From assembly GCF_023276355.1 (NCBI RefSeq), contig NZ_JALLPL010000001.1:682001-746000 (forward strand): DNA of 64,000 bases, read 5' to 3'. The DNA comes from Haloplanus sp. XH21 (GTDB lineage Archaea; Halobacteriota; Halobacteria; Halobacteriales; Haloferacaceae). Under the pieces are notes generated by a model that had not been told where the DNA came from, made no database searches, and saw only the letters and a list, made by a program, of their open reading frames with translations. Positions within the stretch are counted from its first letter, which is position 1; every line of letters starts with the position of its first letter. Positions 6,631 through 38,274 of the stretch are shown here, piece after piece. The position numbers were made by a program, and so were the translations under genes.

Positions 6631-8343
6631 TCAGAACAGGCCGCTGATGTTGCCGTCCTCGTCGACGTCCATCCCCTCAGCCGCGGGTTCGGCGGGGAGA
6701 CCGGGCATCGTGAGCACGTCGCCCGTCAGCACGACGACGAATCCGGCGCCTGCGTCGGGGTAACACTCGCGGACGGTGAGCGTCCAGTCGTCCGTGGGTG
6801 CCCCCTTCCGCGTCGGATCGTCCGTCGTCGAGTGCTGGGTCTTCGAGAGACAGACGGGCATGTCGCCGTATCCCTGGTCCTCGAGGCGGGCGATGTCGTC
6901 GCTCGCGTCCTCGGTGAAGTGGACGTCTTCGGCGCCGTACACGTCGGTCGCGACGGTGCGGATCTTCTCTTTGAGGCCGAGATCCAGCTCGTACAGCGGT
7001 TCGAACGCGCCCTGGTCGCTGTCCGCCAGCTCCTTGGCCGTCGTGGCGAGTTCCTCCGCGCCTTCGCCGCCCTCGGCGAACGCCTCCGAGATCACCACGG
7101 GGTAGCCCTGCTCCTCGCAGTGGTCGATGATGGCCTGAATCTCGGCGTCGGTGTCCGTCGGGAAGCGGTTGATGGCGACGACGAAGGGGACGCCGAACTG
7201 CTCGATGATGCCGGCGTGGTGATCGAGGTTCGACAGGCCGTCACGCACCGCCTCGGCGTCGGGTTCCTTCAGCAGGTCGTAGTCGGTCGGCCACATATCT
7301 AGCCCGTGATACTTCATCGACCGGACGGCGGTCGTCAGCACCGCCGCGTCCGGCGCGACGCCGCGTCGCGAGACGATGTTGCCGAACTTCTCGAAGCCGA
7401 GGTCGGCGGCGAAGCCGGCCTCCGTGACGAGGTAGTCGCCCAGCGCGAGGCCGAGTTTGTCGGCCAGCAGCGAGTTGGTCCCGTGGGCGATGTTGGCGAA
7501 GGGGCCGCCGTGGACGAACGCGGGCGAGCCCTCGATGGTCTGGACGAGGTTCGGGCGCAGCGCGTCTTTCAGCAGCATCGCCATCGCGCCCTCGATGCCC
7601 AGGTCGCCGACGGTGATCGGATCGCCGCCCATGTCGTAGGCGACGATCATCCGTGCGAGGCGTTCTTTCAGGTCCGACAGCGAGTCGGCCAGACAGAGCA
7701 CGGCCATCACTTCGGAGGCGGCCGTGATCTGGAAGCCGTCCTCGCGCGGCGGGCCGTTGGTCTCCCCGCCGAGGCCGACGACGATGTCGCGGAGCGCGCG
7801 GTCGTTCATGTCCAGCGCGCGCTTCCAGCTCACGTTGTCGACGTCGATGTCGAGTTCGTCGTAGTGGGTCTTGGTGTCGAGCGTCGCCGAGACGAGGTTG
7901 TGCGCCGTCGTCAGCGCGTGGAGGTCACCCGTGAAATGCAGGTTGATGTCCTCCATCGGGAGCACCTGCGAGTGGCCGCCGCCCGCGGCACCGCCCTTGA
8001 TGCCGAAGACGGGGCCGAGCGAGGGTTCACGGACCGCGACGACGCTCCGGTCGCCCAGGCGGTTCAGTCCCTGGCCGAGGCCGACGGTCGTTACCGTCTT
8101 GCCCGCGCCCTTCGGGGTCGCCGTCGTCCCCGTGACCAGGATGAGTTTGCCCTCGTCGGCGTCGCCCAGCGTCCGTCGGATGGCGTCCTGTTCGATCTTC
8201 GCGATCCCGTTGCCCTGGGGATCGAGGTCGTCGGGTCCGAGGCCGAGGTCACCGGCTACGTCCTCGATCGGCCGCGTCTCCGCCGCCCGTGCGATCTCCA
8301 TGTCCGTCGGTGCGTCGCCGCCGTCGGTGTCGTCCGAAGTCAT
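6631..8343 (-). CDS. fhs: Formate--tetrahydrofolate ligase
   Basis: ATP-dependent formation of 10-formyltetrahydrofolate from formate, feeding purine and one-carbon pools. The 570-residue protein is the normal length and shows the family P-loop TTATPKGAGKTVTTVGLGQG, the REPSLGPVFGIKGGAAGGG block, GFQITAASEVMAVLCLA and the folate-site FGVPFVVAINRFPTDT. The start at 8343 is favoured over an in-frame ATG five codons upstream because a TATA-like ATACATATG near 8367-8375 is about 27 bp before it. It works with serine hydroxymethyltransferase and the glycine decarboxylase subunits encoded at 55.8-59.9 kb. Confidence 0.96.
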   Translation of the reverse strand: MTSDDTDGGDAPTDMEIARAAETRPIEDVAGDLGLGPDDLDPQGNGIAKIEQDAIRRTLGDADEGKLILVTGTTATPKGAGKTVTTVGLGQGLNRLGDRSVVAVREPSLGPVFGIKGGAAGGGHSQVLPMEDINLHFTGDLHALTTAHNLVSATLDTKTHYDELDIDVDNVSWKRALDMNDRALRDIVVGLGGETNGPPREDGFQITAASEVMAVLCLADSLSDLKERLARMIVAYDMGGDPITVGDLGIEGAMAMLLKDALRPNLVQTIEGSPAFVHGGPFANIAHGTNSLLADKLGLALGDYLVTEAGFAADLGFEKFGNIVSRRGVAPDAAVLTTAVRSMKYHGLDMWPTDYDLLKEPDAEAVRDGLSNLDHHAGIIEQFGVPFVVAINRFPTDTDAEIQAIIDHCEEQGYPVVISEAFAEGGEGAEELATTAKELADSDQGAFEPLYELDLGLKEKIRTVATDVYGAEDVHFTEDASDDIARLEDQGYGDMPVCLSKTQHSTTDDPTRKGAPTDDWTLTVRECYPDAGAGFVVVLTGDVLTMPGLPAEPAAEGMDVDEDGNISGLF

Positions 8344-8400
8344 CGTCGGGAGATACACAACCCCTCCATATGTATGCCGCGACGTTGGCGAGTTTCACGA

Positions 8401-11259: not shown

Positions 11260-11493
11260 ATGACGCTGACGATCGACGCGGGTGAGCGGACCGTTGAGGA
11301 GATTCTCGACGCCCTCGAGGCGGGCCAGCGGGTCGTGGTGCGCACCGAGCTGTTCGGCGGCGTCCACGAAGTGACGCTCCGTCACGATGGGACGACGTAC
11401 TACTGTGATACGCCGACGACGCTGCACAAACACGGCTCCGTTGACGGGATGCGCACGTGCATCGAGCGGATGGGGTACGCGAGCGACGCCTAA
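11260..11493 (+). CDS. Small haloarchaeal protein of unknown function
   Basis: 77 residues, soluble, with alternating strands in the middle (about 30-55: VVVRTELFGGVHEVTLRHDG) and two cysteines. I do not recognise it. A TTTAGG box centred near 11233 is 27 bp before the ATG, so the gene is probably expressed from its own leaderless promoter, divergent from hel308. Its TAA stop at 11491-11493 abuts and shares one base with the left terminal repeat of the palindromic element at 11493-11572, so the C-terminus may have been fixed or shortened when that element arrived. Confidence 0.72.
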   Translation: MTLTIDAGERTVEEILDALEAGQRVVVRTELFGGVHEVTLRHDGTTYYCDTPTTLHKHGSVDGMRTCIERMGYASDA

Positions 11494-11572
11494 TACTGTC
11501 GGCTGTAACTGTTTCAAGATGTCCGTCGTCCCGGAGTGACGGACATCTTGATTGACTTACAGCCGACAGTAT
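11493..11572. mobile_element. MITE-like 80-bp palindromic element
   Basis: Perfect 16-bp terminal inverted repeats, ATACTGTCGGCTGTAA at 11493-11508 and its complement at 11557-11572, enclose a second perfect 13-bp inverted repeat, CAAGATGTCCGTC (11515-11527) and its complement (11538-11550), around a 10-base loop. Six-base internal segments do not pair. There is no coding capacity. Long precise terminal repeats point to a non-autonomous miniature transposable element. A strong bidirectional terminator is the alternative, but it would not need such ends. No transposase gene lies in this window, so any driving element is elsewhere. Confidence 0.65.
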
Positions 11573-11584
11573 AACGGCCGCAGG

Positions 11585-11590
11585 TTTAAC
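11585..11590 (+). promoter_or_regulatory. TATA-like box of the winged-helix gene
   Basis: TTTAAC centred 27-28 bp upstream of the ATG at 11615. This spacing decides that start over an ATG two codons earlier. It lies only 13 bp outside the palindromic element. Confidence 0.55.
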
Positions 11591-11614: not shown

Positions 11615-11989
11615 ATGGCCGAATCCGACGCCCCGGAAATCGAGGACCTCGTCGGCGTCGACGAGCCGAACTTTCGACATGTGCTCTCCTGTGTGTTCGG
11701 CATTCAGGACCACGAGAGCCGAACGTATCTGACGCTCCTCGACAACCCCGGCTCCACCGTCGCGGAACTCGCGGACGAACTCGACCGCGACCGGAGCAAC
11801 GTCAACCGCTCGCTGACGACGCTGCTGGAGAAGGGCCTGGTCGACCGGGAGCGCCGGTTGCTCGATCCCGGCGGCTACGTCTACCAGTACACCGCGACGC
11901 CGCTCCCGGAGGCAAAGGAGATGCTCCACCGCACTCTCGACGAGTGGGTCGACCGCGTCCACGACGCTATCGACGACTTCGGGACCTGA
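11615..11989 (+). CDS. Winged-helix transcriptional regulator, TrmB/MarR-like
   Basis: 124 residues. The segment from STVAELADELDRDRSNVNRSL (about 47-67) to LLEKGLVDRERRLL is a classical helix-turn-helix with recognition helix and wing; the C-terminus (EAKEMLHRTLDEWVDRVHDAI) is a long helix for dimerisation. No ligand-binding domain follows, so it is a stand-alone DNA-binding protein. The promoter is immediately downstream of the palindromic element. The target is unknown; the neighbour thrC has its own promoter. Confidence 0.82.
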   Translation: MAESDAPEIEDLVGVDEPNFRHVLSCVFGIQDHESRTYLTLLDNPGSTVAELADELDRDRSNVNRSLTTLLEKGLVDRERRLLDPGGYVYQYTATPLPEAKEMLHRTLDEWVDRVHDAIDDFGT

Positions 11990-20201: not shown

Positions 20202-20236
20202 CCCTCGTTTCGAGGGAGTCGTCACCTCGCGGTGAC
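20202..20236. terminator. Two adjacent hairpins between convergent genes
   Basis: CCCTCG-TTT-CGAGGG at 20202-20216 and GTCACC-TCGC-GGTGAC at 20221-20236 are two perfect six-base-pair stems in the 89-bp gap between the second CBS gene and livF. They may serve as a bidirectional transcription end. No U-tract follows, so this is tentative. Confidence 0.4.
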
Positions 20237-20256
20237 GAACACCGACGACCGGCGGA

Positions 20257-38055: not shown

Positions 38056-38100
38056 CGCTCGTCAGACTCCCACGGTGTCTGCGTACAAAACGGTTCCGTG

Positions 38101-38274
38101 CTACCGGCCGTACGTCAGACGGGTCGCGAACGCGTCGAGGCGCCGCTTGACCCGGCCCAGCCACGCCGCCGGCGAGACGGTCCGGAGGTCGCGCTCTGCG
38201 ACCTCGATGCGGTCGCCAGCGAACGGGTCGCGGTCCCCACCGTCTTCCGTCGCGGCGTCGACGACCGAACTCAT
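38101..38274 (-). CDS. Very small haloarchaeal protein, unknown function
   Basis: 57 residues: an acidic N-terminal half and a basic helical C-terminus (AWLGRVKRRLDAFATRLTYGR). An in-frame ATG 13 codons upstream (38313) would add a CGRC segment, but a TATA-like CTATATG on the minus strand at 38322-38328 sits too close to that ATG and at a usable distance from 38274. Both start and reality of the gene are uncertain. Confidence 0.5.
   Translation of the reverse strand: MSSVVDAATEDGGDRDPFAGDRIEVAERDLRTVSPAAWLGRVKRRLDAFATRLTYGR

Follow-up and report, generated by a model that had tools for sequence, protein, structure and literature searches.

The palindrome that follows a 77-aa open reading frame in Haloplanus sp. 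XH21 is very probably a copy of a palindromic, non-autonomous MITE from a superfamily that spans the class Halobacteria and is served by a transposase supplied in trans. It was identified in a 64,000-nucleotide stretch of the genome (hereafter the window; NZ_JALLPL010000001.1, positions 682,001 to 746,000). The original prediction of a palindromic MITE-like insertion is upheld by four observations: dispersed sister copies, a 3-bp target duplication, empty sites in relatives, and 14 identical copies in another genome.

The palindrome was present as reported, with arms perfect over 16 bp (11493-11508 and 11557-11572). However, the first and last bases of this 80-bp span are part of the target duplication; the mobile unit itself is accordingly 78 bp long and its perfect terminal inverted repeats (TIRs) are 15/15 bp (TACTGTCGGCTGTAA), rather than 80 and 16 bp as first proposed. 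The element lies between two TAA triplets that constitute the 3-bp duplication (Table 1). The predicted inner repeat was also found, but it extends beyond the suggested 13 bp to 15 pairs, 14 of which are Watson-Crick. As previously stated, there is no gene inside, and as a non-coding element of this size it falls within the definition of a short MITE (less than approximately 500 bp, without coding capacity). Predicted RNA folding of positions 11480-11590 gave -59.7 kcal/mol, compared with -28.4 ± 3.4 kcal/mol for 200 shuffled sequences (z -9.2). DNA folding of the 78-mer gave a z of approximately -10 relative to shuffles. The CAG/GTC asymmetry of the internal loop was kept in most copies within the same genome. 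No other hairpin in the window was near-complete: the remaining five inverted repeats of at least 25 nt were 70-73% complementary. Weak hairpin-model matches at window positions 38099-38174 and 20207-20248 (E 0.011 and 0.016, respectively) were judged to be due to chance.

Table 1. Coordinates of the element, its parts, and the neighboring features within the window.
Feature	Position	Strand	Basis or remark
77-aa ORF upstream of the element	11260..11493	+	neighbor in most relatives of the genus
Left target-site duplication, TAA; stop codon of the 77-aa ORF	11491..11493	+	TNA rule, empty sites
Palindromic non-coding element (family-1 MITE), 78 bp	11494..11571	.	repeats, fold, copies
TIR TACTGTCGGCTGTAA; counted as the right end when oriented as in the family model	11494..11508	+	
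Internal loop between outer and inner stems, first side, CTGTT	11509..11513	.	fold
Inner stem, 5' arm, covaries between copies	11514..11528	.	fold and covariation
Hairpin tip, 8 nt	11529..11536	.	fold
Inner stem, 3' arm, covaries between copies	11537..11551	.	fold and covariation
Internal loop, second side	11552..11556	.	fold
TIR, perfect inverse copy	11557..11571	-	
Right target-site duplication TAA	11572..11574	+	
TATA-like TTTAA of the downstream gene	11585..11589	+	conserved in element-free relatives
Downstream winged-helix regulator, TrmB PF01978, E 3.6e-15	11615..11989	+	alternative start 11609

Further copies, for which a genome search had been proposed, were found. A 111-bp query against the 2.94-Mb host genome returned 35 matches (E <= 0.001) at 23 places, with both strands of one palindrome counted once, and 24 sister-copy sites could be delimited. 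A second palindrome family, with ends TACGGTTTATTGTAA or TACGGATTATTGTAA, occupied at least 40 places in the same genome, a lower bound for which 40 of 99 candidates were scored. Its layout is the same, consisting of an outer stem, a GTAAGTCA/AACAGTTAC internal loop, and an inner stem, while the stem sequence is unrelated. Copies of this more numerous family (TIR TACGGTTTATTGTAA; e.g. L061:3054-3136) were also flanked by TNA duplications. Nearby end types of other sequence followed the same rule, TA(C/G)NGNNNNNTGTAA.

Across a 257-Gb sequence collection, in which a 15-mer is often expected by chance, the exact terminal 15-mer occurred in at least 120 stretches. The element analysis was drawn from the 56 that were haloarchaeal by title (six of them titled only 'Euryarchaeota archaeon') and not from the other 64. 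The terminal repeat was paired in 42 of 45 scanned loci (38 of the 56, and seven from the genus), and these paired loci fell into two main lengths of approximately 78 and 108 bp. A covariance model of the 78-bp class, built on copies from the Haloplanus genome and run with search filters that lose weak matches, had matches in 44 of the 116 genomes sampled from the class, representing 21 of 45 genera (E <= 1e-6). G114, a complete genome from the same order, contained 14 copies identical to their consensus at different places, which reflects recent spread.

Several structural variants were observed among the loci. Members of the longer class (107-109 bp; L126, L129, L135, L137, L148, L157, L161, and L174) carried identical TIRs and TNA duplications, had no inner palindrome, and were hosted by Halorussus, Halostella, Salinibaculum, Natronomonas, and others. 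One family-1 copy contained a nested hairpin of a third family (L064:1555-1714; TIR TAGTGGCCTTTGTAA), and another was internally deleted to 42 bp with perfect TGA duplications retained (L030:1508-1549). Two near-identical G114 copies (L387:977-1048 and 8282-8353) differed by short tip deletions, as expected from palindrome slippage. A small contig held two family-1 copies 1.2 kb apart (G009:C3:186769-188151).

A viral origin of the element was considered and rejected. None of the 34 viral stretches containing the exact 15-mer showed a paired hairpin of the family-1 kind, and phage records gave no match to the element. Rfam returned only a sub-threshold match to a plant microRNA, judged to be chance. 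No description of the hairpin family turned up in the literature, whether searched by words or by the terminal sequence.

The flanks of 110 distinct elements defined the insertion site. Both flanks were TNA in 81 elements, and the middle base agreed in 95. Exact duplications comprised TCA (35), TGA (29), TTA (4), TAA (3), and ACT (1). The fourth flank position was G at 130 of 220 ends, a preference that points to a CTSAG-like target. Together, these flanks show that insertion occurs at TNA, mostly TSA, in the context CTSAG, and duplicates those 3 bp. Identical duplications were likewise present in 39 of the 41 copies examined in G114. When the flanks of a copy from Haloarcula amylolytica (L190) were joined with a single TCA, they aligned across the junction in relatives; the best empty site (L352) matched at 97% over 368 bp, ungapped. 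One TCA in the empty site became two in the filled site, making the duplication exactly 3 bp. A transposase acting in trans would recognize the terminal repeats and cut with a 3-bp stagger and, most simply, would probably be a DDE enzyme.

This duplication also bears on a different class of repeat. The element is short, palindromic, high-copy, and mostly intergenic, as would be a REP/BIME-like or PATE-like repeat moved by an IS200/IS605-type (Y1 HUH) transposase or a RAYT acting on hairpins, and PATEs are known in Haloquadratum according to the relevant sections of PMC3119063. However, those sections state that neither haloarchaeal IS605 types nor PATEs duplicate their target (PMC3119063), and such repeats are recognized by having neither TIRs nor a duplication, while the element here has true TIRs and a 3-bp duplication. 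We regard this origin as highly improbable.

An empty site in relatives, which the original prediction had proposed as a check, was found in every genus genome compared. In 11 of 11 other genus genomes, the downstream gene was present at the window locus, the element was absent, and a short spacer stood in its place. This distribution is relevant to the view that the hairpin serves the 77-aa gene as a conserved terminator of transcription or in regulation, which its strong fold and its position directly after the stop codon would suit. The original prediction had named the signs of a terminator as a hairpin conserved in place without other genomic copies, and the opposite was observed: sister copies lie elsewhere in the genome, and the orthologous place is vacant in all 11 relatives. 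In addition, no T-run followed the hairpin, and no terminator-like site was found at the locus. A terminator or regulatory role as the explanation of the hairpin is therefore barely credible, and an ancestral terminator is refuted, although this host could since have adopted the hairpin as a signal for 3' ends.

We then compared the neighboring genes with those of the relatives. The 77-aa product, which had no Pfam or NCBIfam match, ends in GYASDA before its stop, and the proteins of relatives with the gene in this position end in, for example, GYGRD, GYSRDA, or GYGRGE, at the same place or within approximately one residue. Because these C-termini match and the duplicated TAA is itself the stop, the insertion did not set the C-terminus, contrary to the earlier suggestion. 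The TATA-like box does lie 13 bp from the right end of the palindrome (base 11572), as had been described. It is conserved in relatives as TTTTAA or TTTAA and is intact here, so a change to the promoter, also suggested earlier, would be limited to the replacement of sequence lying upstream of its core. Both neighboring proteins and the TATA-like box are left unchanged by the element in this window.

On one of the two strands, any TNA triplet reads as a stop codon, and insertion at a stop consequently rebuilds a stop on both sides. Among the 46 sites in gaps of at most 250 bp (from 123 elements, with 77 outside such gaps), 26 were on stop codons, compared with 8.4 expected (p 8e-9). An identical gene-calling procedure was applied to elements and background, on sequences from which the element had been removed, and the background frequency was 142 of 852 (30 of 207 in an annotated Haloarcula plasmid stretch). 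Grouping sites by gap type gave 17 of 30 on stops in tandem gaps (against 82 of 499), 9 of 11 in convergent gaps (against 60 of 144), and 0 of 5 in divergent gaps. A looser criterion gave 55 of 123, a value inflated by the stop-like triplet that the boundary always contains. Against 47 annotated stops, the gene caller made 37 calls and recovered 32.

Independent RefSeq annotation provided an example from a Haloarcula hispanica plasmid, where the stop of a CPBP protease gene falls exactly on the duplicated TCA. In three further plasmid records (Haloplanus, Haloarcula CBA1115, and Halomicrobium), the copy was not on an annotated stop. For recent copies in G114, 8 of 35 were on stops and 7 of 35 within called genes by the shared criterion, and 4 of 25 near-identical copies were on stops by another criterion. 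These data support an excess of insertions at stop codons over chance, which may arise from target preference or from survival.

The inner stem showed clear signs of covariation. Across 28 pairs in 23 copies from the Haloplanus genome, 53 cells were changed on both sides, compared with 23.8 ± 3.9 after shuffling (0 of 500 as high) and 7-18 when the partner register was slid, counts to which relatedness among copies contributes. Left arms paired with their own right arms at 0.776 and with those of other copies at 0.656 (n = 53; 0 of 2000 permutations), a difference to which relatedness again contributes, and left arms were only 52% alike between copies. Pairing of the inner stem is thus shown to be kept through changes on both sides. 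In the 108-bp class, which has the TIRs and target duplication in common, the inner arms did not pair. The inner hairpin is therefore a feature of the 78-80-bp classes and is not generally needed for movement. Where present, it may be kept for a role in mobility or tolerated as a compact 3'-UTR hairpin; alternatively, template switching could keep the palindromes matched.

Such covariation raises the question of whether an enzyme acts on the hairpin in its entirety, be it RNA or DNA in extruded or single-stranded form, with the inner stem selected for that reason. This structure-dependent movement would account for the compensatory changes, seen both within one genome and across genomes, for the second family with its unrelated stem sequence and identical layout, and for the lack of a linked transposase in the genomes scanned. 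However, the 108-bp class has the same TIRs and duplication without an inner palindrome, and the 42-bp deletion derivative retains its perfect duplications. Subfamily ancestry or arm-to-arm template switching could also match the arms. We consider structure-dependent movement quite unlikely. In a broader form, these would be orphan, class-wide mobile hairpins whose working part is the fold itself: an enzyme, perhaps other than a classical linked-IS DDE transposase, would recognize the structured end, insert at CTSAG, and re-create stops harmlessly. This form, too, is unlikely.

Under the preferred reading of a MITE moved in trans, a partner might share its ends, and the original prediction had proposed looking for a transposase with the same terminal repeats. 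None was found: at the places listed in 12 genus genomes, six further genomes, and G114, no terminal-repeat pair enclosing its own transposase was seen. Among those places in the 12 genus and six further genomes, every pair at transposon spacing could be put down to short copies lying separately. None of 60 PF01609 loci (30 from the genus and 30 from three high-copy genomes) had matching ends of its own; the elements examined had other ends or none that could be delimited, and longer duplications where they could. At 11 PF13358 loci (high-copy genomes and the Haloplanus genome), ends were unmatched except for an IS inside a copy. Numbers of PF01609 matches also did not track copy number, as one genome (G007) had 45 matches and almost no copies and another (G011) had one match and many copies.

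Individual candidates were rejected on inspection. A 1.59-kb TIR pair in the Haloplanus genome (L061) encloses ordinary genes and consists of separate and solo ends. The single long pair in G114 (1,491 bp; L386:1058-2548) is a family-1 copy split by an IS, which we take to be ISH8-like, with a 10-bp duplication (CTTTACGAAC); this IS was inside a hairpin copy in both L386 and L444. A G114 IS encoding a 403-aa transposase has other ends. Finally, a 1,113-bp IS630-like IS of G114 (L469:1393-2505), flanked by TAGTG ends with a TGA duplication, proved to have landed in the tip of a TAGTG-type hairpin from another family, and is assigned as nested because near-identical copies of the IS end at its borders. 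The same arrangement was seen in L466, L471, L473, and L457, and this IS may prefer hairpin loops. For Haloquadratum MITEs, a partner with only a few terminal bases in common is reported in the pertinent section of PMC3119063. The elements described here may likewise have a partner with few terminal bases shared, or one from another transposase family.

Comparison with known systems placed the family among several types of small mobile element. Duplications of 3 bp, TNA or TWA, are made by PIF/Harbinger elements, the IS5 group, and Tourist-like MITEs. Going by their familiar descriptions, PIF/Harbinger and IS5-group elements resemble the present family in using a 3-bp palindromic-type target with a TNA core. 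However, to our knowledge their terminal repeats do not begin with TAC, and the loci examined yielded none whose ends matched. The bacterial Correia, RUP, and NEMIS repeats make TA duplications. By general description they are likewise compact, high-copy, hairpin-forming, and moved in trans, whereas the duplication here is 3 bp and the host is archaeal. Prokaryotic MITEs, as characterized in parts of PMC10969869, are also short, non-coding, dispersed stem-loops with TIRs, a target duplication, and no transposase of their own. The present family differs from that description in that no parent IS was identified, the inner stem covaries, and copies are enriched on gene stops.

The nearest parallel is with the 'small mobile repeats' (SMRs) SMR-A and SMR-B of Haloquadratum walsbyi. 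As described in the sections of PMC3119063 devoted to them, these are approximately 80-110 bp long and high-copy, with prominent TIRs and no known transposase or recognized transposon partner, all of which would suit membership of our element in that group. However, SMRs reportedly target other mobile elements (PATE/IS605) and make no duplication according to the same sections (PMC3119063), while the family here is mostly intergenic and makes a 3-bp TNA duplication. Comparing SMRs by description, we consider actual membership decidedly unlikely. The element is instead a recently mobile, non-autonomous MITE by anatomy, close in kind to the SMRs and distinct by its duplication. Their mode of movement in haloarchaea is called enigmatic in that account (PMC3119063).

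With exact ends, an exact 3-bp target rule, and pairs of filled and empty sites, the family described here provides a tractable handle on such movement. Given the 14 identical copies in G114, an active enzyme may still be present in that genome. Copies also occur in Haloarcula hispanica, a genetically workable species. As the duplication restores the stop codon, the host gene is left unharmed, and the habit of inserting at stops would offer an example of how numerous insertions are tolerated in a compact genome.
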